From: an uncultured Dysosmobacter sp.
GTDB lineage: Bacteria; Bacillota; Clostridia; Oscillospirales; Oscillospiraceae
Reading direction: 5' to 3'
Assembly: GCF_947631165.1 (NCBI RefSeq)
Contig: NZ_CANRKH010000012.1
Span: forward strand, 1-64,000
DNA: 64,000 nucleotides
A program made the position numbers and the translations under genes. How positions within the stretch are numbered: position 1 is the first letter of the stretch; each line of letters begins with the position of its first letter. Under the pieces are notes generated by a model. It saw only the letters and a program-made list of their open reading frames with translations, was not told the origin of the DNA and did no database searches. Positions 5,844-55,523 of this stretch are shown one piece after another.

Positions 5844-6797
5844 ATGATTCGCAACCCCAATGATATCCAGGAGGGCGTCAAGAAGATCCGCATGCTGATT
5901 GCCGGCTACCCCGGCATCGGCAAGTCCACCCTGGCCCTGTCCGCCCCCAATCCCCTGCACATTGATGTGGACTTCGGCATCGACCGCATCGAGCCGCGCT
6001 ACCGCAAGCCGTACATCCAGCCCCAGACCTATGACGAGATCCTGGGCGACCTCACCCCCATCAACCTCCAGGACTTTGACACGCTCGTTTTCGACACCGG
6101 CGGGAAGCTGATCTCCCTCATGTCCATCTGGGCCATCAAGAAAGACCCCAAGAATGGAAAGCGGGACGGCTCCCTCTCCCTTCCTGGTTATGGCGTCGTG
6201 GGCCGTGAGTTCGTCCGTCTGATGGACTACTGCTTTTACGAGCTCCAGAAGAACATTGTCATCGTGTTCCACGCCACGGAGGAAAAGGACGGCGATAATA
6301 CCAGGCTGCGCATCAAGGTAGAGGGACAGACCAAAAACAATGTCTGGGAGCCGATGGACCTGGGCGGCTTCGTCGAGATCTACGGCAACGACCGCACCAT
6401 CGGCTTCTCCAACTGCGAGCGGTACTTCGCCAAGGGCACCAGGGGCATCAACGGTATCCGCAAAATCCCCGCGCTCGGGCCGACCAGCCCCAACGACTTC
6501 CTGACCAAGCTCTTTGACGAGTATAACGCCCGCGCGGTGGCGGAGGTCCAGAAGAACGCCGAGCAGCAGGCCATCTATGAGGCCGCTATGGTCGAGGGCA
6601 GCTCCATCATCGCCGGGATCACCGACGCCGACACCGCCAACGCTGCCATGCCCAAGTACAAGGCCATCAAGCACGCGCTGACCTCCAACAAGGAGCTGGG
6701 TGTCATCTGGAACAACAAAATCAAGGAGCTGGGCTTGATGTTCGATAAGGTGCTTGGCAAGTACACCCCGGCTCCGCCTGCGGAGGGGGCGAAGTAA
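5844..6797 (+). CDS. Sak4-like RecA-fold ATPase (AAA_24), probable recombinase
   Basis: 317 aa. Walker A GYPGIGKSTLAL near residue 20 and Walker B-like FDTLVFDT near residue 77. This matches phage nucleotide-binding proteins of the AAA_24/Sak4 type, which with SSB promote single-strand annealing. A PD-(D/E)XK nuclease follows at once and an SSB is encoded 2 kb downstream, which supports a recombination role. Start at ATG 5844, 9 nt after AAAGGAG. Confidence 0.82.
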   Translation: MIRNPNDIQEGVKKIRMLIAGYPGIGKSTLALSAPNPLHIDVDFGIDRIEPRYRKPYIQPQTYDEILGDLTPINLQDFDTLVFDTGGKLISLMSIWAIKKDPKNGKRDGSLSLPGYGVVGREFVRLMDYCFYELQKNIVIVFHATEEKDGDNTRLRIKVEGQTKNNVWEPMDLGGFVEIYGNDRTIGFSNCERYFAKGTRGINGIRKIPALGPTSPNDFLTKLFDEYNARAVAEVQKNAEQQAIYEAAMVEGSSIIAGITDADTANAAMPKYKAIKHALTSNKELGVIWNNKIKELGLMFDKVLGKYTPAPPAEGAK

Positions 6798-44234: not shown

Positions 44235-46928
44235 ATGGCATGGACCGGAGTAATCACCAACGCCGGAAATGCGCTTTTGAGCCAGTGGGCCAGCGAAAAG
44301 ACGCTGCACATTGACAGCGCCGCCGCCGGCACCAACAGGGTATCCGTCGCCACGCTGATGGCCCAGACCACCTTGGCCAGCCAGAAGCAGACGGCGAGCA
44401 TCATTTCCGGGGAGCAGCTGGCCGCCGGGTATAAGGTCAAGCTTCAGATCACCGCGCCTGACGCCGGGTACAATCTGAGCCAGTACGGCATCTGGGGCCG
44501 CCTGGACGACGGCGGCTCTACGCTGCTCGCCCTGTTCCAGAACGACAGGGATATCCCGATTCCGAGCAAGGACGATTCCCCCGACTTCGTCTACACTTTC
44601 TACGCGCTCCTGGCCTTTGACAACACCGGCAAGCTGGAGCTGCACATCGACTCCAGCGCCGTGGTCACCCTGGAGACCGTCACGAAAATGGTCTCCGAGG
44701 CCGTTGCAACGAAGCAGGACAAGATTATGGTCGAGGGCTTGTTGAAGGGTGACGGCCAGGGGAACATCACCGCAGCGACGCCAGGAGAGGACTACGGGCT
44801 GCCTATGGTGTCCGGGCACGGCGCGCCCACGGAGGACACGGAGGCCGTTGTCGGGCAGCACTACTTTGACGAGGACAGCGGCAAGGAATATGTCTGCACG
44901 GAGAAGTCGGAGGAAGGCAAGACCACCTGGAAGCAGGCCGGGGCCACCGACGCCGATGACCTGACCTACAACGGGGGGCGGCTGAGCGATGCCCTTGACG
45001 CCATGGGCAAGGCCATTGACGGGGCCAAACCCCTGACCGGCACCAGTGACCCAGACGAGCATACCAAGGGCGCAGTCGGCCAGACCTATCTCAACACCGA
45101 GACCGGCCAGACCTTCGTCTGCACCGAGGCGGACGACGAGAGCGGTACCTACACCTGGACGGAGAGCGGGGGCGGCGGCGTGAAGCCGCAGATCACCGTT
45201 ACCGTGGCCACCGGCTCCGAGGTCACCTGTACCTGCGGCGAAACCGTCCTGCGCGGGACGAGCGTGGACGGGACCTGCGTGTTCAACCTCCCCCGATACG
45301 GCACCTGGGAGCTTCAAGCGACCCTGTCCGGCCAGACCTCCGACAAGGCGACCGTCGTGGTCGACCAGGTCAAGCAGTACACCGTCACACTGTCCTACTT
45401 CGCGGCCACCCTCGCCGTCACGGCGGAGAACGGCGCATCAGTCGAGGCGGTCAATGGGACGCACCGCTATACCGGCACCTGCGGCAGCAGCGGTACATGC
45501 GCCCTCACCGTCAACTACCCCGGCCAGTACACCGTCAAGGCCACCAAGGAGAGCTGCACTTCCAGCACCGCCACAGCCAATGTGACGGACAGCGGCGGCA
45601 GCTATACCGCAAAGGTGGCCTTTATCACGCTGACCGTCACCATCGACGCCGGGAGCAAACTGACGGTGAGCAAGGACAGCCACAGCTTCACCAACAATTC
45701 CACCACGGGAACGACCACGAAATTCTACTTGCCGGAGACCGGCACCTGGAAGGCCGTGGCCACCAAGGACGACCAGAGCGCCGAGGGAAGCGTGAACTGC
45801 TCCGCCTATCAGGGCTACACGCTGGAACTCAGCTATGTGAAGATCGTCGGCGTGTGCTGGACTTACAGCGGCACCTCCACCGCCTGCTCCAGACTGACCA
45901 AGACGGGCGACCCGAATCACCTGGTCAATGTGGACATCCTCACCGAGCCGAAGCCCGCCGTCGGCACCGGCACCGGCAGCTCCCCCTTTGACCAGCTCAT
46001 GCCTTGGGCCGGCATGGAGGAGTACAATGTTTCCGGCAGCAGCTTCACCAAGAAGGGCTCCAACGGCTTCTCCCGGGCGAATGATACCGTGGTGCTGATC
46101 CCGGAGTATTACTTCCGAATCATCGACGATGCCGGCAGCAAGAAGCGGTATTTCTATGTCGCGGACAAGGCCAAGACCGGCTTCACCAAGCACCCCGGCT
46201 CCGGGAAGTATGTGGGCCGGTACAACACCAGCGGCAGCGTGAACGCCCAAAAGACGGTGACCGGGCAGGCCCCGCTTGCCAGCCAGACACGGGGCGCGTT
46301 CCGCACCGGCGCGAAGCAGAAGGGCGCCAAATGGCGGCTGTACGATTACGCCTCCTGGTGCGCGGTCTGGCTTCTGTTCTTGGTGGAGTTCGCCGATTGG
46401 GACAGCCAGAAGAAAGTCGGGCGCGGCTATGTGGACGGCAATTCCTCTCCGCATACCACCGGCGGCACGGACAGCATGAACTACCATACCGGCCGGGCGG
46501 ACGGCACCGACGGCAAGACCCAGGTGCAGTATCGCCATATCGAAGATCCCTGGGGCAGCATCTGGGAGTGGATCGACGGCATCAACTTCAAGGAGCGCGT
46601 CGTCCATATCTGCCTTACCCCGGCCAACTATGCCGACGACACGGACTCCAACTACACGGCGGCCGGCATCACCCTTTGCGATAGCGGCTGGATTACGGAG
46701 ATCGGCGCGAGCACCAATTTCCCGTGGGCGTTCCTCCCGACAAAGAACGGAGGAAGTGAAACGACCTGCATCCCGGACTATGTGCACTCGAGCACCGGCT
46801 GGAGAGTGCTGATGGTCGGTGGCCACTGCAGCAGCACCGGCAACGCCGGTCTCTGGTACTTCGACGCCGGCTACTCGTCCAGCTACAGCAGCAGCAACAT
46901 CGGCGGGCGGCTCCTTGTAGATCCCTAA
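44235..46928 (+). CDS. Tail fibre/adhesin, DGR target with C-type-lectin-like end
   Basis: 897 aa. Residues 1-150 are a P2 gpH-like fibre start (WTGVITNAGNALLSQWASEK, YNLSQYGIWGRLDDGGSTLLAL). A middle part has two modules of the GQ.Y.NTETGQTFVCTE type and then Ig/PEGA-like beta repeats. The C-terminus (about 620-897) reads as a formylglycine-generating-enzyme/C-type-lectin-like fold: WCAVWLLFLVEFADWDSQ, DPWGSIWEWIDGI. Residues 850-895 are the variable repeat, differing from the template only at adenines except one base. It should be the host-receptor binder, diversified by the DGR. Confidence 0.93.
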   Translation: MAWTGVITNAGNALLSQWASEKTLHIDSAAAGTNRVSVATLMAQTTLASQKQTASIISGEQLAAGYKVKLQITAPDAGYNLSQYGIWGRLDDGGSTLLALFQNDRDIPIPSKDDSPDFVYTFYALLAFDNTGKLELHIDSSAVVTLETVTKMVSEAVATKQDKIMVEGLLKGDGQGNITAATPGEDYGLPMVSGHGAPTEDTEAVVGQHYFDEDSGKEYVCTEKSEEGKTTWKQAGATDADDLTYNGGRLSDALDAMGKAIDGAKPLTGTSDPDEHTKGAVGQTYLNTETGQTFVCTEADDESGTYTWTESGGGGVKPQITVTVATGSEVTCTCGETVLRGTSVDGTCVFNLPRYGTWELQATLSGQTSDKATVVVDQVKQYTVTLSYFAATLAVTAENGASVEAVNGTHRYTGTCGSSGTCALTVNYPGQYTVKATKESCTSSTATANVTDSGGSYTAKVAFITLTVTIDAGSKLTVSKDSHSFTNNSTTGTTTKFYLPETGTWKAVATKDDQSAEGSVNCSAYQGYTLELSYVKIVGVCWTYSGTSTACSRLTKTGDPNHLVNVDILTEPKPAVGTGTGSSPFDQLMPWAGMEEYNVSGSSFTKKGSNGFSRANDTVVLIPEYYFRIIDDAGSKKRYFYVADKAKTGFTKHPGSGKYVGRYNTSGSVNAQKTVTGQAPLASQTRGAFRTGAKQKGAKWRLYDYASWCAVWLLFLVEFADWDSQKKVGRGYVDGNSSPHTTGGTDSMNYHTGRADGTDGKTQVQYRHIEDPWGSIWEWIDGINFKERVVHICLTPANYADDTDSNYTAAGITLCDSGWITEIGASTNFPWAFLPTKNGGSETTCIPDYVHSSTGWRVLMVGGHCSSTGNAGLWYFDAGYSSSYSSSNIGGRLLVDP
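46781..46918 (+). repeat. DGR variable repeat (VR)
   Basis: 138 bp at the 3' end of the fibre gene aligned without gaps to 47145-47282 (offset 364). There are 14 differences: 13 fall at template adenines (A to G 8 times or more, also A to C and A to T), in 12 codons. One T/C difference lies at 46913 in the GC-rich 3' end, where initiation of mutagenic homology is expected. Confidence 0.97.
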
Positions 46929-46935
46929 TGGGGGA

Positions 46936-46955
46936 CCGGGGGCCGCAGCCCCCGG
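46936..46955. promoter_or_regulatory. DGR target hairpin downstream of VR
   Basis: CCGGGGGC (46936-46943), CGCA loop, GCCCCCGG (46948-46955): 8-bp stem and 4-nt loop, 17 bp after the VR. In the Bordetella phage DGR an 8-bp stem/4-nt loop hairpin just after VR promotes mutagenic homing. The match in size and place supports the same role. Confidence 0.8.
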
Positions 46956-47008
46956 AGCTTACAGGTCAGCAGCGCACCAGCGACAAGAGGCACCGGCCCC
47001 ATGGGGGT

Positions 47009-47040
47009 CCGGGGGCGAAGCCCCCGGTTTATATATTTTT
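47009..47040 (+). terminator. Terminator after fibre gene, near-copy of the VR hairpin
   Basis: CCGGGGGC-GAA-GCCCCCGG (47009-47027), the same stem as the VR hairpin but a 3-nt loop, followed by TTTATATATTTTT. It should end the late transcript. The preceding GGGGGT/GGGGGA is also shared by both copies, so one hairpin probably arose from the other. Confidence 0.75.
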
Positions 47041-47097
47041 GAAATAACGGATTCCGTTATTTTCTGCCGTTTTTCCGCATGAGGCCAGCATCGCAGA

Positions 47098-47103
47098 TAT
47101 AAT
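47098..47103 (+). promoter_or_regulatory. Candidate -10 box for TR/reverse transcriptase transcript
   Basis: Perfect TATAAT 42 bp before the template repeat and after the terminator. No good -35 is seen at 17 bp. A hairpin AAATAACGGA/TCCGTTATTT (47042-47062) lies just upstream. Transcription from here would give an RNA starting about 35 nt before TR. Confidence 0.45.
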
Positions 47104-47144
47104 CAAGACGGGAATATCTGCGCAGCGCGTCGGGGTTCTGTTCC

Positions 47145-47282
47145 TGTGAACTCGAACACCGGCTGGAAAGTGCTGATGGTCGGTGGCAACTACAACAACA
47201 CCGGCAACGCCGGTCTCTGGTACTTCAACGCCAACAACTCGTCCAGCAACAGCAACAGCAACATCGGCGGGCGGCTTCTTGT
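47145..47282 (+). repeat. DGR template repeat (TR)
   Basis: 138 bp non-coding copy of VR between the fibre gene and the reverse transcriptase, same orientation as both. Contains 12 AAC codons in the frame of VR; 10 of the 12 have been changed in VR. AAC is the codon favoured in DGR templates because adenine mutagenesis gives 15 residues and no stop. 36 adenines in total, 13 substituted in VR. The 47283-47410 spacer to the RT gene has no ORF and would be part of the template RNA. Confidence 0.96.
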
Positions 47283-47410
47283 TTGCTCTCTTTTTGTCAA
47301 TGCGCGGGTATCCCCTCACCGCTCGGTGAAAATTTTGTCGTCAGGACGGATCTTAGTAGGCCGCAAGGCTCGAACAGCGCCGCAGACAAACAAGGAGGGC
47401 TTATCCTGAC

Positions 47411-48634
47411 ATGCCGAAAAGAGTAGGCTATATCTACCAGCGAATGGAGGACCCCGCCTTCATCCGCCGGTGTATCCGCATCGGGACCCGTGAGAGCAAG
47501 AAGAAAAAGCGGAAGGATGTCCGCAAAGTCCTGGTCAACACGGATCTCTACATAGAGCGGATGCAGTCCATCGTCCGGGAGCGCAGCTTCAAGCCGGAGA
47601 CGCCCCGGAAGAAAACCATTTACGACCCTTCCAGCCAGAAATGGCGGGACACATTCCGGGTGTCCTTTTGGAAGGACGGACTCATGCACATCATGGTCTG
47701 CCAGGCCATGATGGATGTCCTCATGCGCGGGATGTCGCCGTGGTCATGTTCCTCCGTCCCCAACCGGGGCGGGAAGCGCATCCACAAGCGGCTGCGCCAC
47801 GCCATGCAGGACAGGCCGAAGCAGAGCGCCTATGCCAGCGAAGCCGATGTCAAGAGCTACTATGATTCCATTCCCCTGGATCGGCTGATGTCCGCCCTGG
47901 AGCGGAAGGTCAAGGACAAGGAATTCCTGCTGCTGGTGGCCATCTGCATCACCTGCGAGCAAATCACCCTGCGGGAAGCCCTGGACAGGGGCCTCTCCTG
48001 GCGCGACATCACCCGGGGGCGCGTCGGCCTGTATATCGGCCTTTACATCGACCAATGGCTGGCCAATTTCTACCTGGAGCCGCTTGACCGCATGCTCCTG
48101 GCTCACCCGGGCGTGAAGTTTACGACCCGGCACATGGACAACATCGTGGCCACCGGGCCGAATAAGAAGCTGCTCCACGCCGCCATGCGGGAAACGGCGC
48201 GGGTGCTTCAGACCCTGGAGCTGAGGCTAAAAGGGGACTGGCAGGTGTACCGCACCACCTTTACCCGCAAGGCGCAGCGGCGCCGGCTCACCATGACAGA
48301 CCGCCAGCGGCAGCTCCGGCACCCGCGAATGGTAGCAGCGGTCGGCTACCGCTTTGGCCACAGCTACATCACCATGCGCAAGCGGAATTTCCTCCGCTTT
48401 ACCCGCCAATGCCGGCGGGTGCAAAAGAAGCTGGATTCCGGCCAGCCGATATCCTACAACCAGGCAACCGCGCTGCTCAGCCGGATCGGGCAGCTCAAGC
48501 ATTGTGACAGCCACAATGTGCGCATCAAATATGTTGACCCCATAGGGGTACGAAACTTGAAGGAGGTCGTGCGCTATGAAGGTAAGAGGCGACTTGCCGC
48601 CCAGCGGCGCCTTTACGCTGGAGGAGCAGCCTAA
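47411..48634 (+). CDS. DGR reverse transcriptase
   Basis: 407 aa. RT domains in order: SSVPNRGGKRIHKRLRHAM, palm motif ASEADVKSYYDSIPLDRLM with the first catalytic Asp, IGLYIDQWLANFYLEPLD in place of the usual (I/V/L)GxxxSQ motif, then TTRHMDNIVATGPNKKLL, where most RTs have YxDD. Copies TR RNA into adenine-mutagenised cDNA that replaces VR. The serine-to-aspartate and DD-to-DN changes are departures from the standard DGR RT. Lies 128 bp after TR, the normal place. Confidence 0.93.
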   Translation: MPKRVGYIYQRMEDPAFIRRCIRIGTRESKKKKRKDVRKVLVNTDLYIERMQSIVRERSFKPETPRKKTIYDPSSQKWRDTFRVSFWKDGLMHIMVCQAMMDVLMRGMSPWSCSSVPNRGGKRIHKRLRHAMQDRPKQSAYASEADVKSYYDSIPLDRLMSALERKVKDKEFLLLVAICITCEQITLREALDRGLSWRDITRGRVGLYIGLYIDQWLANFYLEPLDRMLLAHPGVKFTTRHMDNIVATGPNKKLLHAAMRETARVLQTLELRLKGDWQVYRTTFTRKAQRRRLTMTDRQRQLRHPRMVAAVGYRFGHSYITMRKRNFLRFTRQCRRVQKKLDSGQPISYNQATALLSRIGQLKHCDSHNVRIKYVDPIGVRNLKEVVRYEGKRRLAAQRRLYAGGAA

Positions 48635-52950: not shown

Positions 52951-53030
52951 TTCGTGTCCCTTTCTCGCCTGCCATCATCAGCGCCGGGAGGCGATCCCCG
53001 GTCGGACGGGCCAGCGGCCCGTTTCGGCAT

Positions 53031-53312: not shown

Positions 53313-54245
53313 TTACGCTACCACAGCCTCGGTGCGGGGCTGGAACGCGGCGGTGAGATGCTGCCGGCAGGTCTTGAACTCGGGGCCGGTCAGGCCGAGG
53401 CGCTTCGTGAGGACGCCGTTCATCAGGGCGGCCTTCCGGTCGGCGGTGTAGCTGGCGCAGCTCTTGAAGTAGAGCTTGGTGTCCTGACACTCAATGGCCC
53501 AGGCGCTCATGGCCAGACAAAACTGGACATAGGCCTTAATCTTCCCGGCGTGGGTGGTGCCATTGAACAGCCGGAACTCAACCGTCCCCTTCGTAAAGAA
53601 CGCGTGGAGGTTGATGCCGTGGTACCGGCTGGAGTTATAGTGCTGGTGGTCGATGCCGCCGGTATAGCCATCGTTGGCGCGGCTGTACCAAATGCGCTCC
53701 AGGCTGTCCTTGCTCTTTTCGCTGTCCCGCTTCATGGCGGCCAGGAGGGTGCGATTCATCTTCTGGCACCAGCGGTTTGCCCGGGAGCCAATCTCCAGCG
53801 CCTCGTAGAAGAGGTCCTGCCGGCCAACGGCGAAGTTCATCAGGCGGGTCAGGCTTTCGGGGGGGTGGTTGGCGCCGTCAACATGGACATGGATGCCGCA
53901 GGAATCGTTGGCGATGGCACCGGCGGCCCGGAGGGCGCGGACGATATTCTGCAGGTCGTCCATATCTTCGTACTGGAGGACGGGGGTGACGACCTCACAG
54001 GAGTAATCCCGGCCGGCGTTGACCCGGCCACCGGCGGCCTTCCGCTCGGTGCGGATGCTGCCATCGGACATGGCTTTCCAGGTGCGGCCCTTGCGGTCGG
54101 TGGCGGTGTAGGTGTCGTAGTAGGTGCCGCCGTAGCGGGTGGTGGTCCCGAAGTAGTTGGCGATGACCTTGGCGGCCTCGATGCGGGAGATGCCCGTCAG
54201 CTCGATTTCTACGCCAAAGTTCTGCTTCTTCATCATGTCGTACAT
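53313..54245 (-). CDS. Amidoligase-family enzyme (glutamine synthetase/COOH-NH2 ligase fold)
   Basis: 310 aa from ATG 54245 (GGAGG at good spacing). FGVEIELTGI is the metal/ATP-binding start, then AMSDGSIRTE, SCEVVTPVLQYEDMDDLQNIVRALR, CGIHVHVDG and TVEFRLFNGT, all hallmarks of the amidoligase (pfam12224) family. These enzymes are predicted to form amide bonds at carboxylates of peptides or cell-surface molecules using ATP. Transcribed from a strong promoter divergent from a small XRE gene. Confidence 0.9.
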   Translation of the reverse strand: MYDMMKKQNFGVEIELTGISRIEAAKVIANYFGTTTRYGGTYYDTYTATDRKGRTWKAMSDGSIRTERKAAGGRVNAGRDYSCEVVTPVLQYEDMDDLQNIVRALRAAGAIANDSCGIHVHVDGANHPPESLTRLMNFAVGRQDLFYEALEIGSRANRWCQKMNRTLLAAMKRDSEKSKDSLERIWYSRANDGYTGGIDHQHYNSSRYHGINLHAFFTKGTVEFRLFNGTTHAGKIKAYVQFCLAMSAWAIECQDTKLYFKSCASYTADRKAALMNGVLTKRLGLTGPEFKTCRQHLTAAFQPRTEAVVA

Positions 54246-54307
54246 TTTCGTTACCTCCGTATTTTGTTCTGATTTATCAAAACTTTGTTTTGTGTCCTCG
54301 TCATCTA

Positions 54308-54336
54308 TACGATACCATGGGCCAACTGTCTTGTCA
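54308..54336 (-). promoter_or_regulatory. Promoter of amidoligase operon
   Basis: On the minus strand: TTGACA (54336-54331), 17-bp spacer, TATCGT (54313-54308). The -35 box is inside the left arm of the shared inverted repeat. Confidence 0.75.
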
Positions 54337-54375
54337 ACACTTTTTTTCGATTTTACGAAAAAAAGTTTTGACAAG
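54329..54375. promoter_or_regulatory. 47-bp inverted repeat carrying both divergent -35 boxes
   Basis: Left arm 54329-54348 and right arm 54355-54375 are inverse copies with one substitution and one extra A, separated by ATTTTA. Each arm ends in CTTGTCAA/TTGACAAG, so the -35 boxes of the amidoligase and XRE promoters are mirror images. A likely operator for the small XRE protein. Confidence 0.7.
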
Positions 54376-54396
54376 TCGAAACTGTTGTGATAGAAT
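54368..54396 (+). promoter_or_regulatory. Promoter of small XRE gene
   Basis: TTGACA (54368-54373), 17-bp spacer, TAGAAT (54391-54396), 21 bp before the ATG at 54418. Close to consensus. Confidence 0.8.
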
Positions 54397-54417
54397 GGCG
54401 ATACGGAGGTGATTTGC

Positions 54418-54648
54418 ATGGTAAGCTACAAACCGCTGTGGCACACGCTGATTTCGCGGGACATGAAGAAGATGGACTTGGTGAGCCGGGGAATCGTCGG
54501 GCGCTCCACCCTGGCAAAGATGGGGCGGAATGAGTATGTCGCGCTGGAGGTCATCGACAGGATCTGCACAGACCTGGACTGCTCCATCGCGGAGGTCGTC
54601 GAGGTCACCCGCGCCAGCGCAGCAGATAAAGAAAGCCCGGACGCATAA
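54418..54648 (+). CDS. Small XRE-family regulator (divergent from amidoligase)
   Basis: 76 aa. YKPLWHTLISRDMKKMDLV, GIVGRSTLAKMGRNEYVALEVIDRIC, DLDCSIAEVVEV: the single-HTH type (HTH_26) common beside mobile-element accessory genes. ATG 54418 has GGAGGT 7 nt upstream. It probably controls its own promoter and that of the amidoligase operon through the shared inverted repeat. Confidence 0.85.
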   Translation: MVSYKPLWHTLISRDMKKMDLVSRGIVGRSTLAKMGRNEYVALEVIDRICTDLDCSIAEVVEVTRASAADKESPDA

Positions 54649-55158: not shown

Positions 55159-55167
55159 CTTGGTGGA
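55159..55167. repeat. Right attachment core (ssrA-phage junction)
   Basis: CTTGGTGGA, identical to 74-82, overlapping the TGGTGGAGG that is the complement of the tmRNA 3' end. Phage-side arms GCTCTGCCT (55152-55160) and GGTTCGT (55142-55148) match, inverted, those next to the left core. Integration thus preserves a complete tmRNA. Confidence 0.9.
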
Positions 55168-55523
55168 GGTGGGGGGAGTTGAACCCCCGTCCGAAAGCAC
55201 TTTAACGGGACTTTCTCCGGGCGCAGACGGTTATTGCGGGGATCCGCTCCCCTGTTCCCCTTCCCCCGGGCAAGCCGTCACGCCAGGGGGGCGGGTGAGA
55301 GTCATGATGCGTGGGCAGGTCAACTCTTTCCCGCCTCACGGACGCCACATCAACGACGCCTTCCCCGGCCTGTGGCCTCTCCGGTTCAGACGGCTGCCTT
55401 AATTAGGCAGCAACAGCAACAGTGTTGTTGTTATTTAATTTATAAATTGCCCATTTTATGGATGTTAGGCGCATCCGCCCGCTTGTCCCGCCTCCATACC
55501 CCCGTCGAAACCGGTACACCCCC
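55161..55523 (-). ncRNA. ssrA: Transfer-messenger RNA (tmRNA)
   Basis: 363 nt. The 5' end GGGGGTGT pairs with the 3' acceptor CACCTCCACCA, with encoded CCA. The T-loop GGTTCAACTCC is near the 3' end. The tag reading frame ends in AAC AAC AAC ACT GTT GCT GTT GCT GCC TAA (NNNTVAVAA) at 55403-55405. If the resume codon is GCA at 55450-55448 the tag is AIYKLNNNNTVAVAA. Rescues stalled ribosomes with SmpB, encoded 2 kb away. Used by the prophage as attB. Confidence 0.96.

Follow-up and report, generated by a model that had tools for sequence, protein, structure and literature searches.

Can a reverse transcriptase (RT) keep working when asparagine (Asn) takes the place of the second catalytic aspartate (Asp) in its YxDD motif? 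This question is raised by a diversity-generating retroelement (DGR) found in a 64,000-nucleotide stretch of contig NZ_CANRKH010000012.1 from an uncultured Dysosmobacter sp., referred to here as the window. A preliminary description, made from the letters of the DNA, had proposed a DGR aimed at a prophage tail fibre, and this reading is supported by the pattern of differences between template repeat (TR) and variable repeat (VR), a hairpin, an RT-18 RNA and a DGR-type RT. The description overlooked that the YxDD motif of the window RT reads HMDN, the second catalytic Asp being replaced by Asn (N244). The most probable interpretation, to which we assign a probability of roughly 85%, is a working prophage DGR whose RT belongs to one of three Asn lineages with a rebuilt active site. 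Sequence comparison shows the anatomy of the element, three origins of Asn, its coupling to changes elsewhere in the enzyme, purifying selection, and adenine-limited VR variation at identical RTs.

TR and VR align without gaps over 138 nt, and realignment returned the positions first reported (Table 1). Among the 14 differences, 13 fall at the 36 TR adenines and one at the 102 other bases (hypergeometric p = 4.5e-8), as had been counted before. Such near-repeats, with mismatches concentrated at TR adenines (13/14 at 36/138 sites), are a mark by which DGRs are recognised, as is an adjoining RT that groups with DGR RTs, which is also found here. The sole difference at a non-adenine base is a T to C change near the 3' end. 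A recount likewise gave 12 codons with an altered amino acid, 10 of them derived from AAC; in a further, thirteenth codon the difference is silent. The RT gene lies downstream of TR as an open reading frame (ORF), and VR ends 10 bases short of the last base of the fibre ORF, at the C-terminal end of the protein; both placements had been correctly described.

Table 1. Positions of the DGR components, key RT codons and associated structures in the window (aa, amino acids)
Feature	Positions	Strand	Basis
Target gene, 897-aa tail fibre protein, VR at C-terminus	44235..46928	+	ORF; PHROGs matches
VR	46781..46918	+	TR/VR alignment
GC-rich hairpin past fibre stop codon, 8-bp stem, 4-nt loop CGCA	46936..46955	+	
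Second hairpin, identical 8-bp stem, 3-nt loop, upstream of TR	47009..47027	+	DNA fold
TR	47145..47282	+	TR/VR alignment
RT-18 RNA (RF03021), TR-RT spacer	47317..47397	+	57.9 bits vs gathering 41.3
DGR reverse transcriptase, 407 aa, HMDN instead of YxDD	47411..48634	+	
E144 codon, motif A, two before catalytic D146; mostly Lys in Asp-type relatives	47840..47842	+	
D146 codon, motif A catalytic Asp; Asp in 184/184 rows	47846..47848	+	
D243 codon, first Asp of YxDD; Asp in all 200/203 distinct RTs with residues there	48137..48139	+	
N244 codon AAC, site of second catalytic Asp	48140..48142	+	
A310 codon, FLGY-like motif; mostly Phe or Tyr in Asp-type relatives	48338..48340	+	

In two motifs the window RT departs from what is usual for DGR RTs. 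It has HMDN where YxDD with both aspartates is expected, and in RT domain 4 the DGR motif (I/V/L)GxxxSQ reads IGLYIDQ. The latter motif is not an exclusive feature, because 15 of 155 DGR RTs deviate in its final two residues according to passages of PMC3521204. A sequencing slip at the N244 codon was considered and rejected, since HMDN also occurs in L058, L293 and L295.

Judging from its relatives, Asn at the second Asp of YxDD is no isolated lesion of the window RT, because 57 of 184 non-redundant relatives in a kin-enriched sample have Asn there. These RTs were drawn from IMG/VR, GTDB contigs, whole genomes and phage records (6 of 64 matching phage records) and were chosen by similarity to the window RT and other Asn-type RTs, so that the counts give no estimate of frequency. 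Among 203 distinct RTs, residue 244 is Asn in 64, Asp in 136 and a gap in three. Removal of the three motif gaps, of rows with fewer than 230 filled positions and of rows more than 95% identical to a retained row left 184, with Asn in 57, Asp in 127 and nothing else; the filter required DD or DN at the motif, a rule by which only gaps were removed. Trees of 128 and 184 rows were built without the trait columns (241-244 in the former; also 142, 144 and 310 in the latter), and both are quick trees with support from the Shimodaira-Hasegawa-like approximate likelihood ratio test (SH-aLRT) only. In both, the Asn form needs three changes, forced by starred branches, which indicates that Asn at 244 arose three times. 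Lineage I holds 32 Asn rows, one of them a further RT from the window genome; lineage II holds 10, including the window RT, with NMDD, YMDD and YIDD Asp-type RTs as neighbours; and lineage III holds 15. The window genome (G000) also contains a second DGR at C1:77159-78097 (L004/L014), with a YMDN RT of lineage I and a TR/VR pair whose 16 mismatches all fall at its 37 adenines.

The replacement at 244 is coupled with changes at two other positions. Exactly three of 348 alignment columns (144, 244 and 310) distinguish the Asn forms from the Asp forms in each of the three lineages, under a rule by which the lineage residues are rare (at most 5%) in 116 DGR-like Asp rows, with exceptions of at most 10%; for this comparison, 11 of the 127 Asp rows were removed as group II, retron or other non-DGR-like RTs. 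The next-best column, 246, has exceptions of up to 20%. Lys at 144 is found in none of the 57 Asn rows, versus 113 of 127 Asp rows, and is usually replaced by Glu, while Ala, Ser or Cys at 310 occurs in all 56 Asn rows with a residue there, versus a single Asp row of 127. Glu at 142 or 144 is present in 48/57 Asn rows and in 4/127 Asp rows, those four being the outgroup. Residue 144 lies on the same predicted strand (141-147) as the catalytic Asp146, two positions earlier, and position 310 is presumably the counterpart of the primer grip of the human immunodeficiency virus (HIV) enzyme. By branch length, the chance of a change on all three Asn stems is roughly 6e-7 for 310 and 6e-6 to 1.5e-5 for 144; in independent-pairs tests, three origins cannot give significance (p 0.25). 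L155 (1246-2445, + strand) encodes an Asp-type RT with Gln144 and Ser310, and it may represent an intermediate towards the Asn form.

DGRs record the activity of their RT in the neighbouring VR, and this record suggests that the Asn forms are active. Of the 57 Asn loci, 43 have a TR/VR pair in which 75% or more of the mismatches are at A; pooled, these 43 differ at 628 of 1353 adenines and at 21 of 4261 other sites. We call the window system a variant apparently working like a DGR, not a textbook member, because such adenine-specific pairs go with the Asn form. Loci that share an identical RT were also compared, on assembled contigs. L087 and L088 of lineage I have identical RT DNA and identical TRs, and their VRs differ at 15 of 42 adenine sites and at 0 of 102 others; L216 and L217 of lineage III, again with identical RT DNA and TRs, differ at 11 of 18 and 0 of 59. 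In lineage II, the RTs of L174 and L175 (HMDN) are identical over 1098 nt, and the VRs differ at 19 of 32 adenine sites and 2 of 104 others, with six differences between the TRs. By eye, L174 has A and L175 has G or T at these six sites, as would happen if TR itself had been a homing target or were losing adenines. The lineage I set of nine distinct loci (36 pairs) with identical RTs has 0 to 2 VR differences at other sites if the TRs are identical and up to 8 if they differ. The pair L141/L236 was left unused, its RT count (650/873) stemming from unequal ends.

The nearest relative of the window system, L293 (genome G1126), has an HMDN RT with 81% identity and a ratio of nonsynonymous to synonymous rates (dN/dS) of 0.17. 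Compared over 132 sites, the two VRs are different opposite 20 of the 33 TR adenines that both systems share and alike at all 85 of the other sites they share; where the TRs differ with A in neither, each VR has the base of its own TR (10/10). Agreement of this kind per lineage (687/697 non-A TR differences in II, 186/195 in III and 4657/4735 in I) was not relied on, as it is partly built in: pairs are found by that very agreement, and locus pairs also share members. The Asn RTs are also under purifying selection. Among 89 pairs of Asn-type RTs, 75 are less than 95% identical, and the 71 that give a ratio have dN/dS of 0.05-0.22, with dS often near or above 1; near-identical pairs with few changes reach up to 0.40.

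In the first set of loci, the mean share of adenines changed is 0.447 for 31 Asn loci and 0.554 for 65 Asp loci (p 5e-5). The proposal that Asn lowers the mutation rate was rejected, since the difference between lineage II (0.449, 8 loci) and its Asp-type sisters (0.505, 16 loci) is not clear (p 0.15) and that for TRs of at least 130 nt is marginal (p 0.046). Differences at non-A sites number 21/4261 for the Asn type and 44/8266 for the Asp type, with the bias of the pair finder in both; because there is no clear change, the second Asp would hardly set adenine selectivity. In lineage III, SP replaces the hallmark SQ of motif 4 in 15 of 15 rows (L006, L007, L018, L141, L210, L211, L213-L215, L219-L221 and L223-L225), and the 11 rows with a TR/VR pair differ at 140 of 237 adenines and 6 of 926 other sites. 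The occurrence of SP in an apparently adenine-specific lineage fits the exceptions to the SQ rule noted in passages of PMC3521204.

Several observations count against a working Asn-type DGR. The TR/VR finder favours A mismatches; when it was rerun with C, G or T as the favoured base, 0, 6 and 1 of the 57 loci passed, versus 43 for A, and the six G passes may be mirrors of A to G changes. Fourteen of the 57 Asn loci have no passing pair, and although 12 of these begin less than 500 nt from a contig edge, L171 and L099 have room for one; the best pair of L099 has 12 A and 12 other mismatches. The column rule was set after an earlier result had already drawn attention to 144 and 310. A simple carboxylate swap would not cover all Asn RTs, since Glu is absent from both 142 and 144 in nine of the 57 Asn rows. 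The window genome, moreover, has two other RTs (C2, C3) with YMDD that group with DGR RTs, and these could help in trans at the window itself. The last point also speaks for an account in which the Asn RT is dead. An Asp-type DGR RT in the same cell would then act on VR in trans, and the Asn RT gene would survive as a relic or serve as a structural partner. One of the YMDD RTs of the window genome, L003, adjoins its own TR/VR pair with 12 A and 1 other mismatch, and passages of PMC554778 state that mutation of either Asp inactivates the RTs of HIV-1 and Moloney murine leukaemia virus. This account is nevertheless improbable, given that Asn is retained in three lineages, only Asp or Asn is seen at the site, dN/dS is low, and the accompanying changes at 144 and 310 suggest that the active site has adapted. 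In genomes G209 (99% complete, 7 contigs) and G403 (98%), furthermore, the Asn RT is the only DGR-type RT found; the two further RTs, one per genome by both PF00078 and the A6 profile, are of retron Ec67 type (663 bits against a cut-off of 450) and of group II type (279 bits, short of its cut-off of 300). At the Asn loci of these genomes, every TR/VR mismatch is at A (15 in L140, 14 in L141). G1079 has a single RT match too, but that genome is 78% complete.

It could also be argued that the element is an ordinary DGR and the D to N change a neutral local curiosity, as the remaining DGR parts are standard and the share of adenines changed is not clearly unlike that of the lineage II sisters. 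Such neutrality is most unlikely for a residue described as catalytically essential, with both YxDD aspartates 100% conserved in a set of 155 DGR RTs (passages of PMC3521204), and for a change that arose three times with the identical two companion changes. Tree error presents another concern, since the three Asn lineages might be a single lineage artificially split and the coupling a single event; the trees are quick, and 34 of 125 forks in the 128-row tree and 53 of 181 in the 184-row tree are open. This is scarcely credible, however, because three changes are imposed by starred branches whichever of the two trees is used, the Asn lineages have separate Asp-type neighbours, such as the NMDD rows near lineage II, and an approximately unbiased (AU) test on a quick tree of 50 hand-picked rows rejects a single Asn clade (p 1e-47) as well as lineages I and II as one (p 1e-4).

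Under the preferred interpretation of a working Asn-type DGR, the adjacent RT would copy a TR-containing RNA, with RT-18 in its 3' spacer, and make errors where this template has adenine. The resulting complementary DNA (cDNA) would replace VR upstream of the hairpin, so that the fibre tip would keep changing. The Asn enzyme itself would make this cDNA, and the changes at 144 or 142 and at 310 may rebuild its metal site, either through a carboxylate contributed by motif A or through a looser second-shell geometry. Loss of Lys at 144, often to Glu, would take away a positive charge where 244 lost a negative one, and a less bulky residue at 310 may create space. The broader proposal, that the second catalytic Asp is replaceable in nature and that three DGR lineages with a rebuilt D-x-N centre have kept adenine-selective mutagenesis, is in our estimation evenly poised. 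Such a centre would consist of N244, a non-Lys residue (mostly Glu) at 144 or Glu142, and a small residue at 310, and either a carboxylate from motif A or a relaxed second metal site would take over.

The hairpin past the fibre stop codon stands out in a DNA fold of 46919-47040 (z -3.4). Its stem and loop length agree with the DGR consensus (7-10 bp GC-rich stem, 4-nt GRNA loop), whereas its loop sequence differs. In a survey of loci with enough flank, window and near-copies included, a hairpin follows VR in 37 of 58 Asn loci and 53 of 106 Asp loci, versus about 1 and 1.6 expected from shuffles; by this rule, 21/58 and 53/106 are without one, and a hairpin follows TR in 6 Asn and 5 Asp loci. 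RT-18 reaches its gathering score in 8/8 tested sources of lineage I, 6/6 of lineage II (window included), 10/13 of the Asp type and 0/5 of lineage III. An RNA fold of TR with the spacer is no better than shuffles (z -0.75). No Avd-type match to Pfam, NCBIfam or PHROGs was found in the two ORFs after the RT, the only ones covered. On a related phage contig, a Twister-sister ribozyme (RF02681, 80.4 bits) lies at 6678-6760 (-) of L174.

The fibre protein matches phrog_5302 (tail protein, E 6e-69) and phrog_27381 (tail fiber, E 1.6e-15). The preliminary description called the fibre lectin-like, and DGR targets are marked by a C-type-lectin-like domain with VR at the C-terminus; the position of VR agrees, and the fold is at most hinted at. 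A profile of the C-terminal domain of the fibre, aligned with 19 homologous C-terminal domains from other loci, gave only weak matches in the PDB, with 5vf4, which we take to be the Thermus aquaticus DGR variable protein, at E = 0.043. The surroundings are those of a tailed prophage, with integrase, terminase, portal, head protease, tape measure and baseplate families, and an endolysin gene is located after the DGR. Further along, a type II hammerhead ribozyme (RF02276, 44.0 bits, gathering 37) is found at 52963-53029 (-), near an amidoligase-type gene (53313-54419). A transfer-messenger RNA (tmRNA) match at 55161-55523 (-) scores 138 bits by Rfam (RF00023), whereas ARAGORN found no tmRNA; it could mark the prophage end.

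The DGR of Bordetella phage BPP-1 (mtd/avd/TR/brt) differs from the window system in several respects. Its RT has YMDD instead of HMDN and, by alignment, Lys and Phe where the window RT has Glu and Ala; its RNA is of the Phage_DGR family rather than RT-18; it has avd, and none was recognised in the two ORFs after the window RT; and the post-VR loop of the window reads CGCA instead of GRNA. Closer in arrangement are the DGRs of Butyrivibrio phage Arawn and Faecalibacterium phage FP_Epona, likewise Firmicutes gut phages with the order tail or fibre gene with VR, TR and RT, although their RTs are of the Asp type (YMDD) and 27-28% identical to that of the window. The same Asp to Asn change is described for nematode Bel/Pao YVDN elements (Cer7-Cer12, Atlas virus) in passages of PMC554778 and PMC9094657; these are animal long terminal repeat (LTR) retroelements, unlike the window DGR, and according to PMC554778, whether their Asn form is active remains to be determined. 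In a 62-member DGR clade, 57 RTs have SQ and Y(V/M)DD (passages of PMC4244168). The terms "YxDD", "catalytic" and "motif" do not occur in the main text of the large DGR survey PMC8144416, and a term look-up in PMC6642488, PMC11792537 and PMC4159848 gave nothing on the YxDD motif. No paper on YxDN in DGRs was found in the open-licence literature, outside which many journals lie.

Reverse transcription is held to depend on the Asp-Asp pair of YxDD, and the Asn lineages provide natural evidence on whether its second Asp can be replaced, because DGRs record RT activity in the neighbouring VR. They run counter to the invariance of the two aspartates that the passages of PMC3521204 cited above report for DGR RTs, and residues 144 and 310, which change along with 244, indicate where to look. 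For genome surveys they serve as a warning that YxDN RTs should not be called dead outright.

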